From NCBI GenBank assembly GCA_030425645.1, contig JAUHZK010000003.1, positions 186,001 through 250,000 of the forward strand: 64,000 nt of DNA, read 5' to 3'. The translations under genes were made by a program, and so were the position numbers. The DNA is from Gammaproteobacteria bacterium. Its GTDB lineage: Bacteria > Pseudomonadota > Gammaproteobacteria > JAPPPA01. Shown here piece by piece: positions 3,296-15,735 of this stretch; positions within the stretch are counted from its first letter, which is position 1; the number at the start of each line of letters is the position of its first letter. The notes below the pieces were generated by a model. That model was not told the DNA's origin and ran no database searches. It worked only from the letters and a program-made list of their open reading frames with translations.

Positions 3296-3898
3296 ATGCC
3301 ACCACGTTCACAAACTCAAGCCAAGAAAAAGCGTAAGCCAACGCCCAAGCGCGGCGCGACAGGTCGCGCTGCCGGCACTCGTGGTGGCAAGCCCGCCAAT
3401 AGCGGCGGTGGTAACAACTTAGTCCTTGGCTTTATTGCTGGCGCTTTGGTCGGCGGTTTAGCGGTTGCTTTGTGGTATGAAAAACAAGCACCGCAGCCAG
3501 CCACAGACAATCAGCTTGAAAGCGCGCAGCCGGCGCCGAAGGCAGAAACAAAACCCGAGCCAAAAGCCCCGCAAGCTGGCGAAGAGTTTTATCAAAAGCT
3601 ACCCGAAGCCGAAGTCGAAACCTTTAGCGAACAAAAAGACGACAAACCGCTAACGCCCTATGTGTTGCAAACTGGTGCCTTCCGCAGTCGCGCTGAAGCC
3701 GATGAAATGGAAGCGCGGATTGTTTTAGAAACCGGCATGGAAGTTTGGATAGACGAACGCGTATCCAGCAGCGGCACGCTTTGGTATCGCGTGCGCCTAG
3801 GGCCGTTCGAAGGCAAGCGCGCTACTGACCGCGTCAAGCGGCAGTTATGGGAACGCGCACGGATTGAAGCTGTGCGGTATCAGCACCAGCCGGATTAG
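3296..3898 (+). CDS. SPOR-domain cell-division-type protein (FtsN-like)
   Basis: 200 residues with the FtsN-type layout. A Lys/Arg-rich cytoplasmic tail (1-35) is followed by one membrane segment (about 42-60), a Pro/Glu/Ala-rich periplasmic linker (64-115) and a C-terminal SPOR domain (about 119-195: PYVLQTGAFRSRAEADEMEA ... YRVRLGPFEGKRATDRVKRQ). SPOR domains bind denuded septal peptidoglycan, so the protein is expected at the division site. It follows argS by 10 nt, as in Pseudomonas, where hslVU comes next; hslVU is absent here. Whether it is the organism's true FtsN cannot be decided from the window. Confidence 0.9.
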   Translation: MPPRSQTQAKKKRKPTPKRGATGRAAGTRGGKPANSGGGNNLVLGFIAGALVGGLAVALWYEKQAPQPATDNQLESAQPAPKAETKPEPKAPQAGEEFYQKLPEAEVETFSEQKDDKPLTPYVLQTGAFRSRAEADEMEARIVLETGMEVWIDERVSSSGTLWYRVRLGPFEGKRATDRVKRQLWERARIEAVRYQHQPD

Positions 3899-4018
3899 CT
3901 CCCCTATTAGTGACTAAGCACTTCCAGTCACTCTGAGATCATTAGCCTTCATCAAATCTATTGGTGGTTGTTTTCGGCCCTAGGAGCTTCCATTTGCTTT
4001 CGGTGAGTGTATTGGTAA

Positions 4019-4436
4019 GGCCGAGTTACTTTTCTCTATGGCGAGAAAAGTAACCAAAAGAGCCACCGCCAACCGCGCAGCCGCTACGCGGTTCCTTGCG
4101 CTTCTCGCGGATTTTGGCGGTCGCGGGAACTCGCTAACGCTCAAACAAGCCGCTCCCTCAATCCAAAATCCACTGCGATGCTCAGCTGCGCAAAAGGGGC
4201 CTTAGGAGAAAGTCTTCACGCAATCAGCGGTGTTGGTTAGCAGCACCTTTGCCCTTCTATGCGGCCGAGCAACGGAGTCAAATCGAGATTGAGCCTGCGG
4301 CCTGTTTGAGCGCTAGCGAGTTCCGCAGGCGCTCGATTTGGCGAGTAGCACAGGGAACCGCGATAGCGGCCGCATGGTGGGATCGCCTTTCTTTTGGTTA
4401 CTTTTCTTTGGCGACGCAAAGAAAAGTCACTCGGCC
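4019..4436. repeat. 418-bp fold-back (long imperfect palindrome) element
   Basis: The 615-bp gap 3899-4514 has no credible gene. Most of it is one inverted-repeat element. The outer arms 4019-4060 and 4391-4436 are inverted copies, and each is itself a small hairpin built on ACTTTTCT/AGAAAAGT. Inside them, further blocks match in inverse order: GCCGCTAcGCGGTTCC near 4080-4095 against GGAACCGCGATAGCGGC near 4355-4371, and GGAACTCGCTAACGCTCAAAC near 4127-4147 against GTTTGAGCGCTAGCGAGTTCC near 4305-4325. The whole element can therefore fold into one hairpin with arms of about 200 nt. Similar sequences are scattered between genes in other Gammaproteobacteria and often produce spurious ORFs. It has no transposase of its own. 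Confidence 0.75.
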
Positions 4437-4514
4437 CGCATGGATAGCCCAACTGAAAGCGTACAAAACTTTCTTAAGGCCGAAACAACCACCAGCCAAA
4501 GCCCCAAACACCAG

Positions 4515-5843
4515 CTACCGCATCCTCTCAGCAAACCGCTTAAACCCAGCCGGTTTAAACAAAGTTTCCTTCATACGCACCCCAAACTCCGGCTGATCTT
4601 CTTGGTTAGTCATCCCCACCACCACGTAACGGCGTGACTGCAAATCGTAGTGCGCCTCTACCGACGGCAATACCGCCGGTACTTCGTAATAGTTCATCGC
4701 GTGTAGTTCGGCATAGCGCCAAAATTCTAGGCGCTGGTCGTAAATGTCTTGCGCCATCACCGTCCAAGAGTCTTCGTCTAGATAAAACACTCGTTTTTGG
4801 TAGATGTGACTGATGCCGTCTTTAACGTTGGCCTCTACTACCCAAACTCGGTGTTTTTCGTAACGTGTTAAGTCCGGATTAGGGTGTGCCTGTTTAACAA
4901 TGTCGTCGTACTGCACTTTGTTAGAAGACAACCTGTAGGCGTTATAAGGCACATAAATTTCTTTCTTGCCCACTAGCTTCCAGTTGTAACGATCTAAGGG
5001 GCCGTTAAACATCGCAATTTGGTCATGCGTGACCAAACCATCATGAATGGTGCCGTCGTAACCCACGTTAGCGATTTTCTTCACCCGCGTTCCCGGCGTG
5101 TAAATCCAAACATCAGTTTCTTCGATGGTTCTATCTAGCGGCACATGGACTAAAAAGGCTTCGCCAGCATCACGGCCAGTCAGACTCTTACCAATCGCTT
5201 TCACAAAACGATTATCGAGGTCATCCGCATCCACGTCTTCGTCGTGGTAATAGAATTTCAGCTGGGTCACGCTTTTGCTCATGCGGTAGTCGCCGTTGGG
5301 CTGCACCACCGCTGAGTTCGAATAAAGTTTGATGGTATTCGGCGTCACAAAACGCAGGTTGTGATTCCACATCACCTGCTGACCATGCTCCGGCATTGGA
5401 AATGGGAACCCAGCAGCACTGCCTTCAATACCATTACCGTTATTGGTGAGTTTTACTCGTTTGGCGTTTTTAGCCGTTTCTTCGTAAATATATTCCGGAT
5501 AAGAAGCCGAACGGCGCGTTTGATAAACCGGAATTTTGAAGCTATCAGGATAGGTCGTCAGTAGCGCCTTTTGGCCTTCGGTTAGGTTGGCCTCATACTC
5601 TTTGTAGTTCGCCGCCGTAATTGTGAACAACAAGGCATCATCGGCAAACGGATCAGGATGATCGCCGCCCTCCTTATAGGCAGCCGGAGGCGCTTTAATG
5701 CCGCCTTCCCAACTCGGGATGCTACCGTCGGCATTGGCGGCTTTTTCCGCTCCTAAGGGCGTCAGGTGCTCGGGCAAGTCATCGGCGGCAACTGTCGTTA
5801 CCACCAACATGCCGCCCAACAAGGCCTTTAGTAACTGGCTCAT
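4515..5843 (-). CDS. DUF1329 outer-membrane-associated protein
   Basis: 442 residues. A signal peptide (MSQLLKALLGGMLVVTTVAA) is followed by the family's typical start: LTPLGAEKAANADGSIPSWEGG. Later blocks such as NHNLRFVTPNTIKLYSNSAV, GRDAGEAFLVHVPLDRTIEE, TPGTRVKKIANVGYDG and KREVWVVEANVKDGISHIYQ (here KHRVWVVEANVKDG) are also DUF1329-like. The family has a LolA/LolB-like fold and is usually found next to RND exporters and DUF1302 proteins in lipid, sterol or aromatic-compound loci; no such partner is present here. The start at 5843 is supported by GGAGG eight bases upstream. It is a single gene, and its function is not established. Confidence 0.88.
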   Translation of the reverse strand: MSQLLKALLGGMLVVTTVAADDLPEHLTPLGAEKAANADGSIPSWEGGIKAPPAAYKEGGDHPDPFADDALLFTITAANYKEYEANLTEGQKALLTTYPDSFKIPVYQTRRSASYPEYIYEETAKNAKRVKLTNNGNGIEGSAAGFPFPMPEHGQQVMWNHNLRFVTPNTIKLYSNSAVVQPNGDYRMSKSVTQLKFYYHDEDVDADDLDNRFVKAIGKSLTGRDAGEAFLVHVPLDRTIEETDVWIYTPGTRVKKIANVGYDGTIHDGLVTHDQIAMFNGPLDRYNWKLVGKKEIYVPYNAYRLSSNKVQYDDIVKQAHPNPDLTRYEKHRVWVVEANVKDGISHIYQKRVFYLDEDSWTVMAQDIYDQRLEFWRYAELHAMNYYEVPAVLPSVEAHYDLQSRRYVVVGMTNQEDQPEFGVRMKETLFKPAGFKRFAERMR

Positions 5844-5911
5844 CTGGAGCCTCCCTCTCTAACGCATAATTAACAAGTGAGACCACGCTTCTATCACGCG
5901 GTTCCAAAAGA

Positions 5912-6334
5912 CTAGTCTAGCAACTCGGCGGCTAACGCCTGCACCCGTTGTTTAACATCATCTCTAACAGCGCGAAACTGGGCCATGATTTCTTCTTCTG
6001 AACCCGTTGCCTTAGCCGGGTCTGGCAACGGCCAGTGAATTCGGGTTTTGCCAGGCGGCAGCACCGGGCAATGTTCGTCAGCATGCCCACAAACGGTTAC
6101 AAAATAGTCGGTTTGCGCCATCATTTCGTCAGTGAGCACGGTAGATTCTTGCGCCGAAATATCCAGCCCATCCTCAGCCATAATGGCAATTGCCCGCGGG
6201 TTTTTACCATGTGCCTCAATACCAGCAGACAACACTGCCCAGCCTTCACCAAAAGCAGCTTTGGCATAGCCCTCACACATTTGACTGCGGCAAGAGTTGC
6301 CAGTGCATAGAAATAAAACAGTTTTACCAGACAT
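5912..6334 (-). CDS. arsC: Arsenate reductase, low-molecular-weight phosphatase type
   Basis: 140 residues with the thioredoxin-coupled ArsC fold. The P-loop CTGNSCRS has the nucleophilic Cys10, Cys15 and Arg16. Cys82 and Cys89 in VCGHADEHCP form the relay pair that passes the disulfide to the surface. The DP pair after LPDPAKATG matches the acid loop of the LMW-phosphatase fold. The enzyme reduces arsenate to arsenite in the cytoplasm, with thioredoxin as electron donor (trxA is at 55983). No arsR, arsB or acr3 gene lies nearby, so export must be encoded elsewhere. The ribosome site is weak. Confidence 0.92.
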   Translation of the reverse strand: MSGKTVLFLCTGNSCRSQMCEGYAKAAFGEGWAVLSAGIEAHGKNPRAIAIMAEDGLDISAQESTVLTDEMMAQTDYFVTVCGHADEHCPVLPPGKTRIHWPLPDPAKATGSEEEIMAQFRAVRDDVKQRVQALAAELLD

Positions 6335-6447
6335 CAGCTTTAAGATTCTTACTAAGGAAGGGCCGACAGTTTAGTGCAAGCAATAACGTTCGTCATAGAG
6401 TCTTGATCTGCTAGCGTTGCCATAGCCGTTTACTGGTCTAGTTGACG

Positions 6448-6660
6448 TCATAAATCACCTAGCGTTAACAGCAAATGCACGTGGCTGGTCATCAACACAT
6501 AAGCATGCATATCAACGCCACATTTGCGGCTGTACTCTTTCAGCTTATCAAGATAAACCTTGTAGTCCTGGTCTCGTAAAAAACAAACCTGGCGGTCATT
6601 TCCCCGCCGAATAAGACATTGAGGGATACCCGGAAAATTGGAGCGAGACAGGCACGGCAT
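6448..6660 (-). pseudogene. Truncated REP-associated tyrosine transposase (RAYT)
   Basis: Only about 70 N-terminal codons of a Y1/IS200-like transposase remain. The visible RAYT signatures are SRSNFPGIPQCLIRRGNDRQ, the DYKVYLDKLKEY helix, and HAYVLMTSHVHLLLT with the metal-binding His-x-His. The frame then stops at a TGA, before the catalytic tyrosine helix found in full-length members, so it should be inactive. The family mobilises or disperses short REP hairpins. Repeat units of TTTACTCTGACCC flank it just upstream (6715-6759), which fits a decayed RAYT locus. Confidence 0.88.
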
Positions 6661-6714
6661 AGCAAAACCTTTAGAAAAACGATTTGCTACGGCAAGTCAG
6701 GGAGTCCACAAAAT

Positions 6715-6759
6715 CAATTTACTCTGACCCCAATGGTTCTACTCTGACCCCAATGGTTC
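6715..6759 (+). repeat. TTTACTCTGACCC repeat, two tandem 20-bp units
   Basis: The unit TACTCTGACCCCAATGGTTC occurs twice head to tail at 6720-6739 and 6740-6759, preceded by CAATT. The first 16 bases (6715-6730, CAATTTACTCTGACCC) are an exact inverted copy of 7810-7825. A related pair of CCCCTTTGGTTA sequences follows at 6771 and 6791. Confidence 0.85.
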
Positions 6760-6841
6760 AGTTCAACATGCCCCTTTGGTTATGGTTAGACCCCTTTGGT
6801 TACTTTTGGTTGCTTCGCTCCTTTGATTTCCAGTAATCCCA

Positions 6842-7297
6842 TTAATTTGTCGCAGCGGCGGCGGGTTGTCCCTGTGCATCTAGTTCAATAACCCGTCCGT
6901 TAAATTGGCCATTCTTAATGTTTACCTGCGACCAAAAAAATTTGTTCTTATCTACCGAGGTCATGCCGACGAACCAAACTTCACAACCACCGGAGCTCCT
7001 CTCTGACTCATTCAAGATACGCTTCACAAGATCATTCGACAGCAAGTACCTTCTAGTCGCCGAGTGAGCTTTACTGGAATCTAGCTCGCTAAGCACACCC
7101 GGAGGAGCTAAATAATTAACAATAATTTGATCCTCAAACAGCTCGACGTTTTGGATACAAAAACTATCCACTAAAAATCTGCATTCCGACACATAACGCG
7201 TTCTTAAATCAGAAGATAACTCCTTGCAACTAGCAACCGTATCCTCACAACCCAAAAGCGCAAAACAACTAGCTAGCAGAAAAACAAGTCCACGCAA
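6842..7297 (-). CDS. Small orphan lipoprotein
   Basis: 151 residues of no family I recognise. The N terminus MRGLVFLLASCFALLGC is a lipoprotein signal with lipobox ALLGC (Cys17), so the mature protein of about 135 residues should be lipid-anchored. It has five further cysteines (for example in VASCKEL, SECRFL, SFCIQN, GGCEVW), suggesting disulfides. The start is a TTG with AGGGGG upstream; no better ATG is available. The gene lies inside the segment bracketed by inverted TTTACTCTGACCC repeats and looks acquired. Confidence 0.6.
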   Translation of the reverse strand: MRGLVFLLASCFALLGCEDTVASCKELSSDLRTRYVSECRFLVDSFCIQNVELFEDQIIVNYLAPPGVLSELDSSKAHSATRRYLLSNDLVKRILNESERSSGGCEVWFVGMTSVDKNKFFWSQVNIKNGQFNGRVIELDAQGQPAAAATN

Positions 7298-7354
7298 AAC
7301 TTCGCCCCCTAAAATAGTGCCAATCTACAAAGCTTTCTCCTGAGTCGGTAAAAC

Positions 7355-7380
7355 CAATCTACTCTCACCCCGATGGTTCT
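7355..7380 (+). repeat. Diverged copy of the TTTACTCTGACCC repeat
   Basis: CTACTCTCACCCCGATGGTTCT at about 7359-7380 matches the 6720-6759 units with two or three changes and the same orientation. It lies between the orphan lipoprotein and the three-helix membrane protein, so each small gene has its own repeat copy. Confidence 0.7.
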
Positions 7381-7384
7381 TAGC

Positions 7385-7675
7385 CTATATCTGGCTTTTA
7401 TACACAATATAAAATGCAGCAATGACCAGCAGAACCTCAATCCCGGAAATATAGCAATACCATTTAAACCGAGTAGTTTTAAAATAGAAAAATGCGGCTA
7501 ATGAAGTGCATAGCGACAAGGGTGCACCCATCACAAACAATCTAACCACCAATTGCCCACTGTCTCGGTTCAGCTGGATTACCCCAAGCACTTCTCTTAA
7601 CAAAAAAACTCCAGCAACCGATAACACAGAGAAAAAAACGATATCTGCGAGAAACTTCCCGTCAAAGCGCATCAT
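7385..7675 (-). CDS. Small three-helix membrane protein, unknown
   Basis: 96 residues with three predicted membrane segments, at about 9-28 (LADIVFFSVLSVAGVFLL), 44-65 (RLFVMGAPLSLCTSLAAFFYF) and 73-92 (YISGIEVLLVIAAFYIVY). No family is recognised. The start offers two adjacent ATG codons and only a weak ribosome site. It is an orphan cargo gene in the repeat-bracketed patch, next to the orphan lipoprotein and on the same strand. Base composition looks more AT-rich by eye than the neighbouring core genes, as expected for acquired DNA. Confidence 0.5.
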   Translation of the reverse strand: MMRFDGKFLADIVFFSVLSVAGVFLLREVLGVIQLNRDSGQLVVRLFVMGAPLSLCTSLAAFFYFKTTRFKWYCYISGIEVLLVIAAFYIVYKSQI

Positions 7676-7758
7676 TGCTCAATGCCCATATATTCAAAAT
7701 ATGTTTTCATCTACTGCACGCCATAGAGCCTCAGAAAAGTATTCATTCGTACTAGAGA

Positions 7759-7825
7759 ATCATAAGGGTCAATCATAAGAATCATAAGGGTCAGAGTAAA
7801 TAATCATAAGGGTCAGAGTAAATTG
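7759..7825 (-). repeat. Inverted array of TTTACTCTGACCC units
   Basis: Two 22-bp units, ATCATAAGGGTCAGAGTAAA plus two bases, sit at 7781-7802 and 7803-7824, with shorter broken copies at 7759-7770 and 7772-7779. They are inverted relative to the copies at 6715-6759. Bases 7810-7825 are an exact inverted match of 6715-6730. Confidence 0.85.
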
Positions 7826-7927
7826 ACCCAAGTCGCGCCCATCTATAAACCTTTCTTCTGTGTTGGTAATACACTTTGCCGTTCCTAGTCTGCTCTCAAG
7901 GAAAACGCAAACAGTGTTCGGCAACGG

Positions 7928-8974
7928 CTAGCCGTCCTCTAACAACTTACGTAGGTCGATAACCGCGGCATTGGCGCGCGAAATATAGCTCGCCATTACC
8001 AAGGAGTGGTTAGCAAAAATTCCGAAGCCGGAACCATTTAGAATCACCGGGCTGCCCAAGTCGGCTTGTGTGGCTTCTAATTCACGAATGATTTGTCGCA
8101 GGCTGACCAAGGCATTTTTCTTAATCAGCACATCACGGAAATCGTATTCAGCAGCTTTCATAAACTGCACCAAAGCCCAGGCGGTGCCACGAGTTTCGTA
8201 GAAGACGTCGTCGATTTCGAACCACGAGGTTTTAATTTCTAGCGTGCTAGAAGTGGGTGTGGCTTGTTGGGCAGCTGGGTCGCCGGCCAAGTCGGTATTC
8301 ACGCGCTGCTGACCAATACTGGCGGAGAGGCGTTGCGAGAGGCCACCCAAACGCTTTTCGACTACCGCCAACCAATTCGCTAGATTGTCGGCGCGGGCGT
8401 AGAACTGCGCGTCGCCTTGTTCAATATCAATCAGCTCCTGCCGATAGCCTTCGAAAGCACGCAGGGCTTCTCGGTATTTGCCTTCGGTAGAAGGAAATAT
8501 CCAGGAGTCATTGGGCGAATTCAGCAAGGGCTCGCCTTCGGCTAAAAAGGCGTTTTCGACCGACTGTGATTGCGATCGGCTGAAGTCATTTCGTAACGCC
8601 CGTGCTAACTCGCGTGACTGTACGAGCACACCGAATTCCCAATTCGGCATGTTATCCAGCAACACCGAGGGTGGCGTAATGTCGTTACTCAGATATCCGC
8701 CGGGTTTGTCTAACAATGTGCCGACCACATTGATCAATGCCGACGTGGTGGCATGCCCTACTACACCAGAGCTAGCGCCGACTTCCTGCTGCGGCCGCTC
8801 TGGCTCTGATGACCAATACCAGCCCACGACAAGGTTGACCAATACCAGTAAAACCAAGCCCAAAAACGCCGGGCGTGACCATTTATTACGGCCCGTATTA
8901 CCGGCATTAGCGCCTGCAAAGCGCTGCCGAACTGCGTCAACCACATCAATAAATTTATCAGCGACGGAAGCCAT
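7928..8974 (-). CDS. DUF2333 membrane-anchored protein
   Basis: 348 residues. One membrane segment lies near residues 35-52 (AFLGLVLLVLVNLVVGWYW) after a short cytoplasmic tail, and a large, mostly helical periplasmic domain follows. Recognisable DUF2333 blocks are GGYLSNDITPPSVLLDNMPNWEFGVLVQSREL, FPSTEGKYREAL, TSWFEIDDVFYETRGTAWAL and FGIFANHSLVMASYI. The function is unknown. It starts 11 nt after the lnt stop, on the same strand, so it is probably the last gene of the miaB-to-lnt transcript. That position suggests an envelope role but does not prove one. Confidence 0.85.
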   Translation of the reverse strand: MASVADKFIDVVDAVRQRFAGANAGNTGRNKWSRPAFLGLVLLVLVNLVVGWYWSSEPERPQQEVGASSGVVGHATTSALINVVGTLLDKPGGYLSNDITPPSVLLDNMPNWEFGVLVQSRELARALRNDFSRSQSQSVENAFLAEGEPLLNSPNDSWIFPSTEGKYREALRAFEGYRQELIDIEQGDAQFYARADNLANWLAVVEKRLGGLSQRLSASIGQQRVNTDLAGDPAAQQATPTSSTLEIKTSWFEIDDVFYETRGTAWALVQFMKAAEYDFRDVLIKKNALVSLRQIIRELEATQADLGSPVILNGSGFGIFANHSLVMASYISRANAAVIDLRKLLEDG

Positions 8975-8985
8975 ATCAATGAACC

Positions 8986-10509
8986 CTATGTAGTACGGGC
9001 GCCTAGCCCTTGTTGCCTAAGCTTAACCCCCAATAACAACAGCAATACTATCAGCAAGCCAAACATCCAGTGGTTTCGATAGAACATATAAGGTGTGCGA
9101 CCTAGGCGCGGCTGCACCGCATGCACGGCTGCAGCTACCTGCCCTCGTGGCAGGCGCTTCTGTACTTTACCCGCCGGGTTAATAAATGCCGACCAGCCAG
9201 TGGGCGTTGCCCGCACCATCCAACGCTGGGTTTCTATACTGCGCATACGCGCTATCTGTTCGTGCTGGGCGGCAGCAATGGAGTCTCCAAACCAAGCATC
9301 ATTACTCACGTTGACCAGCAAGCCTGCATCCTTGGCCGCTAGCGCTACTTCTTCAGCAAACACATCTTCAAAGCAGATAGAAACAGCTACTTGATGTTGC
9401 CCCACCTGGAATGGGTCACGGTTGCTATCACCGGTATACAAATCGGTAAACGGCAACTCTAAGGACCGCAACCAAGCGCGTACGAAGTTTGGCACCGGAA
9501 AATACTCAGCAAACGGAACAAGGTGCTGCTTATCGTAAAAGGCTAAACCCGGGCCACCTATCTGGGCCACGGTGTTGGCGTATTGGGCACTCAGGTCATC
9601 CCAGCGCATTACGCCAGCCAGCAGCTGCGCATCATGCTGCGTTAGTCGCTCCGCTAATGGCACAAAAAGGTCATGATGGAATTCTCGGTACACCCCGGGA
9701 ACGGCAACTTCTGGCCAAACAATTAAGTCTGCCTCGGCTAGTAGTTCCTCGGTCAGCTGTTCATAACGCTGTACCGTCGGCAGCTGCTGCTCAGGCAGCC
9801 ATTTCCGATCCTGCTCAATATTGCCTTGAGCAATGCCAACGTGTATCGCATCACCACTCGCTTGTGTCCACTGAAGGCTTTGCAGGCCATAGCCTGAAAA
9901 CAGCAACAATATCGCCGGCACTGCCACCCATCGCGCCCTGGCTTGCTGAATAGCCACTGGCATGGCCGCCAATAGCAACACGGGTATAGAGAGCCCAAAC
10001 ACCCCCACTAATGGCGCCCAACCATTCAACCAACTATCAGTCTGGCTGTAGCCCAAGGCAAACCAAGGGAAGCCAGTTAGAACAACGTTGCGCAACCACT
10101 CCAGCAATGGCCATAAGACCAAATAAGCCAGTAACCAAAGGCCAAAAACAGGCTCACTCCCAGAGCGCCGCCCTACCCAAGCGGCGGCGGCCGCTGCCGT
10201 GGCACCAAACAAGGATAAATACAGCGCCAATACAGCAATTAATACCACCGACAAAACGGCCGGGGCACCACTGTAAATATGGGTCGAAATATAAATCCAA
10301 TAGAGCCCCCCAGCGAAGCCCGGGGCCGCAAACAACAGTCCCAACTTAAACGCCGGCAGTGGCGCCTTGCCATACTGCAGCCACAGCAAAACCGCCAGCA
10401 AACAAGGCATTAACCAGCCCTGATTAAAGGGTGCAAAACTAAGCGGAGTTAAGGCACCGGCGGCCAGCGCCACCAATGCTTGGGATTTGCTAACAGACGA
10501 TGTAGCCAA
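8986..10509 (-). CDS. lnt: Apolipoprotein N-acyltransferase
   Basis: 507 residues, the usual length. About eight hydrophobic helices fill the first 200 residues, then a nitrilase-type catalytic domain, then a final membrane helix (WMFGLLIVLLLLLGV). The catalytic triad is visible as Glu in IVWPEVAVPG, Lys in YDKQHLVPFAEYFP and Cys in VSICFEDVFAEE. Lnt adds the third acyl chain to lipoproteins in the inner membrane, so it serves the several lipoproteins in this window. The start appears to be a TTG (10507-10509) with AGGGG upstream. It follows corC by 32 nt. Confidence 0.96.
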   Translation of the reverse strand: MATSSVSKSQALVALAAGALTPLSFAPFNQGWLMPCLLAVLLWLQYGKAPLPAFKLGLLFAAPGFAGGLYWIYISTHIYSGAPAVLSVVLIAVLALYLSLFGATAAAAAAWVGRRSGSEPVFGLWLLAYLVLWPLLEWLRNVVLTGFPWFALGYSQTDSWLNGWAPLVGVFGLSIPVLLLAAMPVAIQQARARWVAVPAILLLFSGYGLQSLQWTQASGDAIHVGIAQGNIEQDRKWLPEQQLPTVQRYEQLTEELLAEADLIVWPEVAVPGVYREFHHDLFVPLAERLTQHDAQLLAGVMRWDDLSAQYANTVAQIGGPGLAFYDKQHLVPFAEYFPVPNFVRAWLRSLELPFTDLYTGDSNRDPFQVGQHQVAVSICFEDVFAEEVALAAKDAGLLVNVSNDAWFGDSIAAAQHEQIARMRSIETQRWMVRATPTGWSAFINPAGKVQKRLPRGQVAAAVHAVQPRLGRTPYMFYRNHWMFGLLIVLLLLLGVKLRQQGLGARTT

Positions 10510-10541
10510 GACAGACGCCCTAGGGGTTAAGAAACAAGCCG

Positions 10542-11459
10542 CTAGCAGTCGTCGGCAGGCTTACCAGCGGGCACCGCGCTTAACTGCGCCACAGCCACTT
10601 GGTGAACACGCCGACCATCGGCTTTTAAGATTTCGAAGCGAAAACCTTCTAGCTCAACCGACTCTCCGCGTTTGGGCAGATAACCGAAACTTTGCAACAA
10701 CAAACCACCGACGGTTTCGGTATCCGGCATGGCGTCAAACTCGGTCTTGAAATAGTCGTCAAACTCGTCCAACTCGGTCAGCGCATTAACCGTATAGCGA
10801 CCGTTGTAGTGCTGAATGATATTGGGCGTTTCTTCGTCATCATGCTCGTCGTCAATGCTGCCAACGATTTGCTCGAGCACGTCTTCAATAGTAACAAGGC
10901 CCGAGATACCACCGTATTCGTCAACCACTAAGGCCAAATGAGTGCGCGCGGCTCTAAACTCCGACAACAACACATTGAGGCGTTTGCTTTCAGGCACCAA
11001 CTTAACGCCACGGCACACTTCGCGTAGCTCAATGTTTTGCCCAGGGTGCTCCACTACATAACGCAGCAAATCTTTCGCCAGCAGAATACCTACGGCCTCT
11101 TCCCTGTCTTCTGTCATCACCGGAAAGCGTGAGTGGCCAGACTCCAACACCGTGCGTAACAAGCTTTCCATTGAGTCGTCGCGGTCAACTACGGTCATCT
11201 GTGCGCGCGGCACCATAATGTCGCGCACACGGGTGTCGGCCACACTCAAAACACCATCAAACATGGTGTGCAAATCACTATCGATAATATGGTCGGCATG
11301 CGCCAAACGGGCAATGTCAGCTAAGTGCGCCGCCGCCGTTGGGCGTGGCATAAAGCGAGGTAGAAGCTTAAGCAATAGTCGCTGCCACCAAGGTAGCGTC
11401 GCGATATATTCGAGCGAAAGGCGCCTCGACGAGGTCGACGGCGGTTTGTCAGTATCCAT
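10542..11459 (-). CDS. corC: CorC/YbeX CBS-domain protein
   Basis: 305 residues. A tandem CBS pair spans about 75-200 (VRDIMVPRAQMTVVDRDDSMES ... LALVVDEYGGISGLVTIEDVLEQIVG), followed by the CorC_HlyC transporter-associated domain (YNGRYTVNALTELDEFDDYF ... FRFEILKADGRRVHQV). There is no membrane domain, as for cytoplasmic CorC/YbeX proteins. The family is linked to magnesium/cobalt efflux and, through its constant association with ybeY and ybeZ, to ribosome maturation. It lies between ybeY and lnt in the conserved order. Confidence 0.94.
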   Translation of the reverse strand: MDTDKPPSTSSRRLSLEYIATLPWWQRLLLKLLPRFMPRPTAAAHLADIARLAHADHIIDSDLHTMFDGVLSVADTRVRDIMVPRAQMTVVDRDDSMESLLRTVLESGHSRFPVMTEDREEAVGILLAKDLLRYVVEHPGQNIELREVCRGVKLVPESKRLNVLLSEFRAARTHLALVVDEYGGISGLVTIEDVLEQIVGSIDDEHDDEETPNIIQHYNGRYTVNALTELDEFDDYFKTEFDAMPDTETVGGLLLQSFGYLPKRGESVELEGFRFEILKADGRRVHQVAVAQLSAVPAGKPADDC

Positions 11460-14311: not shown

Positions 14312-14354
14312 AAAAGGGCGCGAATTGTAGCATTTTTAGCCACCGCGCCCTTTT
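14312..14354 (-). terminator. algC terminator with a promoter-like loop
   Basis: An 11-bp stem pairs AAAAGGGCGCG (14312-14322) with CGCGCCCTTTT (14344-14354), leaving a 21-nt loop. Read on the minus strand it follows the algC stop and ends in a U-rich tract, so it should terminate algC. Confidence 0.85.
14324..14332 (-). promoter_or_regulatory. Candidate extended -10 promoter for miaB
   Basis: On the minus strand the terminator loop reads TGCTACAAT, an extended -10 element (TGn followed by a hexamer one base from TATAAT). It lies 16 bp upstream of the annotated miaB start. No good -35 is visible, as is common for extended -10 promoters. Confidence 0.45.
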
Positions 14355-14382
14355 AAAAACAACAGCCCCTTGGGCCTATTTT

Positions 14383-15735
14383 TTAGCCACGCAGAATACT
14401 CAGTAGCTCTTCAGTTTTGGCATCACATAAGGCTTGATTGCCCTTGGCCTCAACATTTAGCCGCACCAACGGCTCGGTATTGGACTTGCGCAAATTAAAA
14501 CGCCAGTCGGCAAAATTAATACCAATACCATCCATCAGATCAATGCTTTCGCAATCCGGCTCATACTTGGCACGAATCTCGGCAATCTTGCCGTCCGGGT
14601 CTTCAATGCGACTGTTGATCTCACCACTAATTGGGTAAGCAGCAGCACGCTCGCCAATCAGCTGAGACAGCGACTTGCCGGTTTTCGACATCAGCTCCGC
14701 AATAAACAACCACGGCAGGTTGCCGTTGTCACAGTACGCAAAGCTGCGGAAATAATGGTGAGCACTCATTTCGCCGCCGTAAACCGCGTCTTCAGCACGC
14801 ATCACGTCCTTCATAAAGGCGTGGCCTGATTTCGACTGCACTGGTTTGCCGTTGGCATTGGCCACGGTTTCTACCGTCGCCCAAGTTAAGCGAGGGTCAT
14901 ACACAATCGCCGCACCCGGCTCACGCGCCAACAGGGTCTCGGCAATTAAGCTGATGAGGTAATAACTTTCAATAAAGTTGCCGTTTTCATCAAACAAGAA
15001 GCAGCGGTCAAAATCGCCATCCCAAGCGACACCAAAATCCGCGCCACTATCGCGCACCGCTTTAGCGGTTAACTCACGGTTCTCAACCAGTAGCGGGTTA
15101 GGCACGCCATTGGGGAAGGTGCCATCTGGCTCATGCTGCAAGCTGACCAGCTCAAACGGTAGCGCCGGTGAAATCGCGTCGACCACCAAGCCCGCACAAC
15201 CATTACCGGCATTGGTAACAATTTTGAATGGCTTCAGATTGGCCACATCAACTTGGCCCAGTAAGAACTGCGCATACTCAGGGCGCAGGTCTTTTTCGGT
15301 AACCGAACCGGTGCGACTAGGCGCTTCAAATTCACCAGCCACCGCTAGGGCACCAATATCCATCAAACCGGTATCAGCTGAAATCGGCCGCGCTTCAGCC
15401 TTCACCATTTTCATGCCGTTATAGTCAGCCGGGTTATGGCTAGCGGTAACCATAATGCCACCACCTAAACCTTGGCTAAAGGTCGCGTGGTAAACCTCTT
15501 CGGTACCCACCACACCGATATCTAACACGTCAGCGCCCTGCTCGGTCAGGCCGCGAATCAACTCCGCGCATAACTCGGGGCCAGACAAACGCATATCGCG
15601 ACCAACAGCCACCGAGGTGGCGCCGGTAAATTGCACAAATGCGCGGCCAATGTTGTAGGCCAATTCAGGATTTAGCTCGCTCGGCACTTTGCCGCGCACG
15701 TCATAAGCTTTGAAACAAGAAGGAACGCTAGTCAT
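14383..15735 (-). CDS. algC: Phosphomannomutase / phosphoglucomutase
   Basis: About 450 residues of the alpha-D-phosphohexomutase family. Visible sites are the phosphoserine loop MVTASHNPADYNGMK, the metal loop AWDGDFDRCFLFDE, the sugar-binding loop YGGEMSAHHYF, and the phosphate-binding C-terminal RKSNTEPLVRLNVEA. The length and sequence fit the bifunctional AlgC/CpsG group that supplies mannose-1-P or glucose-1-P for lipopolysaccharide and exopolysaccharide. The frame is open to a GTG at 15750. I prefer the ATG at 15735 because GGAAAG lies just upstream of it. It is monocistronic, between two terminators. Confidence 0.93.
   Translation of the reverse strand: MTSVPSCFKAYDVRGKVPSELNPELAYNIGRAFVQFTGATSVAVGRDMRLSGPELCAELIRGLTEQGADVLDIGVVGTEEVYHATFSQGLGGGIMVTASHNPADYNGMKMVKAEARPISADTGLMDIGALAVAGEFEAPSRTGSVTEKDLRPEYAQFLLGQVDVANLKPFKIVTNAGNGCAGLVVDAISPALPFELVSLQHEPDGTFPNGVPNPLLVENRELTAKAVRDSGADFGVAWDGDFDRCFLFDENGNFIESYYLISLIAETLLAREPGAAIVYDPRLTWATVETVANANGKPVQSKSGHAFMKDVMRAEDAVYGGEMSAHHYFRSFAYCDNGNLPWLFIAELMSKTGKSLSQLIGERAAAYPISGEINSRIEDPDGKIAEIRAKYEPDCESIDLMDGIGINFADWRFNLRKSNTEPLVRLNVEAKGNQALCDAKTEELLSILRG

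Follow-up and report, generated by a model that had tools for sequence, protein, structure and literature searches.

A 1591-bp patch with two orphan genes, a broken RAYT gene and short repeats lies between arsC and DUF2333 at positions 6336-7926 of the window, the whole stretch of 64,000 nucleotides analysed here (G000:C9:186001-250000; source genome of 2.75 Mb in 16 contigs), and is absent from the congener G001. We consider it reasonably probable, at roughly 0.58, that this is a small accessory patch in which decayed elements of the TIRtron/TIRYT kind occupy an insertion-tolerant spot and their repeat ends supply breakpoints for gene turnover. The presence/absence difference, the family and polarity of the elements, the broken RAYT and the clustering of copies with genes between them in other genomes are directly established. 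The repeats mark a gene-turnover spot; the layout does not show that a transposase carried the genes.

Position and content of the patch

The genes on the minus strand follow the order Lnt-like (named by eye), DUF2333 (7928-8974), the patch, arsC (5912-6334) and DUF1329. At 43.2% G+C (mean 51.6%, sd 2.6), 6336-7926 is lower than every equal-sized stretch taken in 200-nt steps. The patch comprises the following features:

6336-7926, no strand: segment absent from G001, whose flanks lie back to back on G001:C216; lowest G+C
6448-6660, minus: 5' fragment of a RAYT/TIRYT transposase gene, 70 aa, HVH kept and remainder lost (profile matches, RAYT homologues)
6713-6759, plus: TIR copy with tail AATGGTTC and an extra 20-nt truncated copy (6740-6759)
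6771-6802, plus: two CCCCTTTGGTTA units, probably more tail copies
6842-7297, minus: orphan gene of a probable 151-aa lipoprotein, TTG start (lipobox by eye)
7319-7351, no strand: subterminal segment of the middle element, 27/33 identical to 7837-7869
7353-7379, plus: decayed middle TIR copy with tail GATGGTTC
7385-7675, minus: orphan gene of a probable 96-aa membrane protein (membrane nature by eye)
7756-7827, minus: right TIR copy (7810-7827) with ragged tandem tail copies
7837-7869, no strand: subterminal segment of the right element, 27/33 identical to 7319-7351

Outside the patch, at 3961-4532, a repeat of ~540 bp with foldback arms (4126-4198/4252-4324) adjoins the DUF1329 gene, and partial copies of it are found on at least nine G001 contigs.

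An empty site in a congener

On G001:C216 the two flanks (window 4527-6335 and 7927-10940) directly adjoin each other, with an 8-nt overlap between DUF2333 and arsC. Since the flanks are contiguous there, 6336-7926 is either extra in G000, the source genome, or lost in G001; this comparison is with G001 alone, and the two are different species-level genomes rather than strains. The low G+C and the orphan genes without relatives would fit an insertion, and outgroups do not settle the direction: DUF2333 is present in 12 of the 37 genomes searched and arsC was seen beside it in the G001 locus only; the locus of G000 itself ends before arsC, and the remaining loci carry at most ~1.5 kb of flank. 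The extra segment exceeds the left repeat copy by 377 bp (6336-6712) and the right one by 99 bp (7828-7926).

The initial annotation of this DNA had read the patch as a small cassette and had suggested looking for relatives with an empty site at 6715-7830. G001 supports an extra accessory segment, with an absent part (6336-7926) wider than proposed. No relative that keeps the two genes without the repeats was seen; G001 lacks both genes. Around the site, 14.3 kb are collinear apart from one other gene-size change: at window ~14348-14384 G001 contains an additional transporter-like gene of 466 aa (family assigned by eye), where none of the repeats is present.

The two orphan genes

The 151-aa ORF starts with a lipobox-like LLGC, read by eye, and the 96-aa ORF is hydrophobic, its membrane nature being likewise judged by eye. 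In a search of 369 genomes of the class, each matched itself and two weak, stop-containing hits, with no convincing relative, and each has one match in G000. The probable lipoprotein has no PDB match. A mobile-element origin was considered for both genes and set aside, as neither matched plasmids, viral contigs or PHROGs.

Repeat copies and the RAYT fragment

At up to one mismatch, TTTACTCTGACCC occurs at four sites of the window, all in the patch (6718+, 6738+, 7788- and 7810-), where 0.08 are expected in the window (mean of 100 shuffles; largest 1). The whole genome holds six such matches, against two for the reversed-pattern control: the four in the patch, one on contig C10 and one on C11. 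The inverted copies that had been pointed out at 6715-6730 and 7810-7825 are real, and their match is longer than claimed, extending over 25 nt (6714-6738 with 7802-7826) at 88% complementarity. The additional units described at both ends and between the two small genes were also recovered, as 6738+, 7788- and a decayed copy at 7353-7370+ with 3 mismatches over 18 nt. The repeat plus tail is absent from the viral contigs searched. Literature matches to the repeat letters, among the matches listed, were biomedical by title and were taken as primer coincidences.

The middle and right copies have in common a 33-nt subterminal segment (27/33), with no other match of at least 22 in the 64 kb. This segment has the same orientation in both elements while their TIRs are opposed, as would be expected if the copies were the two unlike ends of a single type of short unit. 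The two copies therefore look like remnants of distinct short elements. For the right element, a candidate decayed second end near 7884-7901 was not significant (119 of 2000 shuffles).

The 70-aa ORF at 6448-6660(-) matches the NCBIfam profile REP_Tyr_transpos with E=1.2e-5 and 25.3 bits, under the 80-bit cut-off, and Pfam Y1_Tnp with E=0.0016, also under the cut-off. It resembles the N-termini of RAYT genes in repeat-bearing loci, with up to 69.8% identity; the HVH motif is kept and the match ends at about residue 66. The left TIR copy (from 6713) lies 53 bp upstream of the start of the fragment, or 58 bp when measured to the core, and forms the 5' terminus of the element to which the broken RAYT itself belongs. 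In the window this element retains its 5' TIR copy alone, with no inverted pair flanking the gene. A truncated RAYT had thus been correctly noticed; it had been placed outside the proposed cassette, and it sits inside the inserted segment 6336-7926.

A complete transposase for the window repeat family was not found among the threshold matches of a PF01797 search of the source genome. The sole Y1_Tnp (PF01797) gene that passes the threshold is flanked by GGGACAGACCCAAATGGGTCTGTCCC and therefore belongs with another repeat family. The same genome carries 16 copies of CGGGGTCTGTCCCC on contigs C2, C4, C8, C10, C11 and C12 (L040-L054, L056), each shortly preceded by an inverted GGGGACAGACCCC; this REPIN-like family goes with the complete RAYT gene on C2 (L007).

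A terminal inverted repeat family of mostly marine proteobacteria

A scan of the genome collection for core plus tail returned 54 loci, mostly from marine alpha- and gammaproteobacteria, with 109 copies at up to 3 mismatches against none in reversed sequences. To obtain the family consensus, AATCAATTTACTCTGACCCCATTGATT, 68 copies from the loci and 3 window copies were selected out of 98 distinct sequences and aligned. Of the 369 genomes of the class, 5 contain the exact 16-mer AATTTACTCTGACCCC and none its reversed control. A divergent unit of ~165 bp, one of the close pairs, is common to Nitrincolaceae MAGs and an Osedax symbiont.

RAYT homologues occur in 10 of the 54 loci, with long ORFs in several (e.g., L083, L089, L096, L098, L109 and L110). 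In L074, L105, L109 and L110 the RAYT gene is flanked by an inverted pair of copies with a spacing of 772-791 bp; the AATCAA sides of the copies face inward and their tails outward. In 7 of the 10 RAYT loci a copy precedes the gene start by ~17-70 bp, an arrangement also seen in the window. The earlier assignment of the repeats to the RAYT type therefore stands, given that intact relatives have the transposase between such copies.

Within the consensus, GGGGTCAG fits the GGGGWSAS motif, and a GT[AG]G head is missing. In the stem 85.7% of cells pair, yet there is no covariation over shuffles, and a hairpin kept by selection was set aside on that ground. The left window copy folds no better than shuffles, and no RNA family match was obtained. 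Its letters and its relatives place the window repeat among the terminal inverted repeats (TIRs) of RAYT-related elements of the TIRtron/TIRYT type, and 'TIR' would be a better name than 'REP' because the GT[AG]G head is missing and the stem does not covary.

Polarity of the copies

The orientation of adjacent copies was compared over 57 pairs, 55 in the loci and 2 in the window. Divergent pairs (n=23) are mostly close together, with 17 at less than 150 bp, 5 at 150-2500 bp and 1 longer. Direct pairs (n=20) number 4, 14 and 2 in the same classes, and convergent pairs (n=14) 0, 13 and 1. Divergent pairs correspond to elements, convergent and most direct pairs to the spaces between them. The outer pair in the window is convergent, its tails pointing inward toward the genes, which places the two genes of the patch in a gap between elements.

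Cargo between outward tails, as a RAYT-borne composite would have, was not found in the window; L069 is a counter-example. There, at 3827-5199, divergent TIRs enclose a 370-aa ORF without Pfam match, next to the decayed 5' remnant of a RAYT gene. This ORF is the strongest candidate for a gene located within an element of this kind. L108 may have a comparable RAYT remnant adjoining a TIR, at E=0.012 only.

Gene turnover, clustering and tail arrays

Gene content differs between G000 and G001 at 3 of 3 repeat sites, of which two are independent, since the patch itself (site 1) was chosen for its oddness. The flanks of site 2 (C10) match G001:C165 at 95% and 85% identity, and the intervening genes differ: an oxygenase-like gene (by eye) and an AbiGi-family gene in G000, a Rieske oxygenase and two other ORFs in G001. 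A blastp comparison of the 8 G000 gap proteins with the 5 of G001 gave nothing better than E=0.066. In this regard, the Rieske oxygenase gene, whole in G001, survives in G000 as a stub of ~20 codons that is partly duplicated and located between two repeat families. At site 3 (C11), the two genomes carry different genes between an ilvD-like and a DUF1499-like gene (by eye), and the identical three repeat families stand at the boundary in both. HIT-like and TonB-like genes (by eye) at this site are bracketed by repeats of the same orientation.

In six genomes, chosen because repeat loci came from them, 60 hits merged to 48 elements, of which 24 have a neighbour within 2.5 kb, against ~0.5 expected if they were uniform. 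The even scatter that would have told against a link between repeats and small orphan genes is thus not what these genomes display.

The genes in the gaps (at least 110 aa) passed the Pfam cut-off in 13 of 25 cases, against 21 of 25 for length-matched controls from the same locus set, all located over 1.5 kb away from the nearest copy (Fisher p=0.032), in a test devised after the genes had been seen, on intervals that are not independent and with 1 of the 25 gap genes and at least two controls looking like spurious ORFs. YoeB and YefM are shorter gap genes, outside the 25.

Most of the genomes in this analysis are MAGs, in which repeats invite misassembly. Two MAGs share a LysE gene adjoining a TIR unit (L113 1-672 and L117 202-1491; 96.5% over 543 bp), with no further match found beyond the unit, which could reflect either shuffling or misassembly. 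L107, compared among four marine genomes, is very divergent and crowded with other repeats.

The 7-nt tail is repeated within 60 nt outward in 25 of 98 copies, against 10 of 98 on the inner side and 0 of 98 for the reversed tail. In front of each extra tail copy stand 0-19 nt of the core 3' end, and such arrays are present at both outer window copies. Arrays of this form, constant at the 3' point and variable at the 5' starts, would be compatible with the tail end being nicked or re-primed repeatedly. A second repeat, AAAACGTGGTCTGTCCCCGTTTTT, shows the same kind of ragged tail array as the window repeat (L131 4611-4760, L129 4471-4577 and L130 5265-5412), and the hairpin TTAAAGGGCTCTGCCCCCTTTAA lies beside it.

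Interpretation of the patch

The empty site, the lowest G+C, the polarity of the copies, sites 2 and 3 with the Rieske stub, the clustering and the Pfam-poor gap genes lead us to favour repeat ends as breakpoints. Low-copy elements of the TIRtron/TIRYT kind would gather at an insertion-tolerant spot. In this family a transposase gene or just a short spacer sits between inverted AATCAATTTACTCTGACCCCATTGATT ends with their tails outward, and both genes of the patch are located outside the elements, in the gaps. The repeated ends may offer nick sites, slippage-prone tail arrays and recombination homology, and at the resulting breakpoints neighbouring genes could be gained, lost or trimmed. No repeat-caused event was seen directly in the genomes compared.

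It is also conceivable, if rather unlikely, that horizontally acquired genes settled in a permissive spot and that TIR elements inserted there later, harmlessly and with no role in gene movement. Mobile repeats of many kinds gather in intergenic or variable regions, clusters near RAYT genes have been described in some marine gammaproteobacteria (extract of PMC2817692), and the transporter gene difference without repeats indicates that turnover occurs without them. Such passive co-occurrence does not sit well, however, with a Rieske stub that ends among repeats at site 2, nor with the identical three repeat families at the changed boundary of site 3 in both genomes. An improbable alternative is that of integron-like or homologous-recombination arrays, in which circles of gene plus repeat would join a resident repeat and leave single genes bracketed by direct repeats. 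Direct pairs at 150-2500 bp do occur (13 in the 54 loci and 1 in the window) and often enclose one to three genes, as in L093, L107 and L113, and the HIT-like and TonB-like genes of site 3 lie within same-orientation repeats; nevertheless, the repeats are short (~27 nt) and decayed and thus offer little homology, and convergent gaps are nearly as frequent in the loci (12).

The initial annotation had seen the two genes as a cassette moved by the RAYT, with the inverted pair as its ends and one repeat per gene, which we now hold to be very improbable. Inverted copies do bracket the genes, and L069 has a non-RAYT ORF of 370 aa between properly divergent TIRs by a decayed RAYT 5' remnant. In the window, by contrast, the copies are oriented the other way round from those of an element, the inserted DNA reaches beyond the repeats at either end, both orphan genes have one match each in G000, and the sole passing PF01797 match belongs to another repeat family, so that no cognate transposase was found. 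RAYTs are not known to spread anything but repeats; no account of RAYT- or TIRYT-moved cargo stood out among the literature matches listed, which is not proof of absence.

Beyond the breakpoint reading that we prefer, it is a highly speculative thought that the TIRs of this marine alpha- and gammaproteobacterial RAYT/TIRYT family might form an integrase-free gene-exchange system, with nicking at tail ends driving gain and loss of whole genes. Elements would seed clusters, and single accessory genes (GNAT, cupin, redoxin, YoeB/YefM, LysE, lipoproteins) would collect between them or, as in L069, inside; the same nicking would also build the ragged tail arrays. If RAYT repeats swap single genes, part of the bacterial gene turnover that leaves neither integrase nor phage in its wake could be traced to them, a prediction testable in close strains. 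The patch documents a TIR family shared across two classes, and the polarity rules help to read repeat-bracketed genes correctly.

Comparison with known systems

The following comparisons refer to extracts of the papers cited. TIRtrons or TIRYTs consist of a RAYT-like gene with flanking inverted repeats and no GTAG; their copies are moderately abundant and occur as single, dimeric or grouped units, and only some of them have the GGGGWSAS motif in their TIRs (Di Nocera et al. 2013, PMC3733652). The copies described here likewise have TIRs with this motif (GGGGTCAG) and no GTAG head; unlike in TIRtrons, the transposase is truncated, unrelated genes lie among the TIR copies and there are ragged tail arrays, of which that extract makes no mention (PMC3733652). 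With REPtrons and REPINs and their RAYTs they have in common a probable link to the HUH tyrosine transposase family, inverted pairs, an extragenic location and the clustering seen near RAYT genes in some marine gammaproteobacteria, and differ from them in having few copies, no GT[AG]G head and a weak hairpin without covariation (PMC2817692, PMC6006769); the canonical arrangement of REPs and REPINs, GT[AG]G at the foot of a stable hairpin, was not found.

Correia repeat enclosed elements are also short inverted-repeat elements and possible recombination hot spots linked to gene loss; their sequence is unrelated, they exceed 100 copies and they have no known transposase (PMC2649163, extract). 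The minimal mobile element sites of Neisseria resemble the patch in gene layout, since the whole genes found between two conserved genes vary from strain to strain; in that extract these are defined by homologous recombination alone, whereas here repeats stand at the borders (PMC3898611). Such a swap of genes is seen at sites 2 and 3, and at site 1 as a filled against an empty site, in a comparison of two species-level genomes only.
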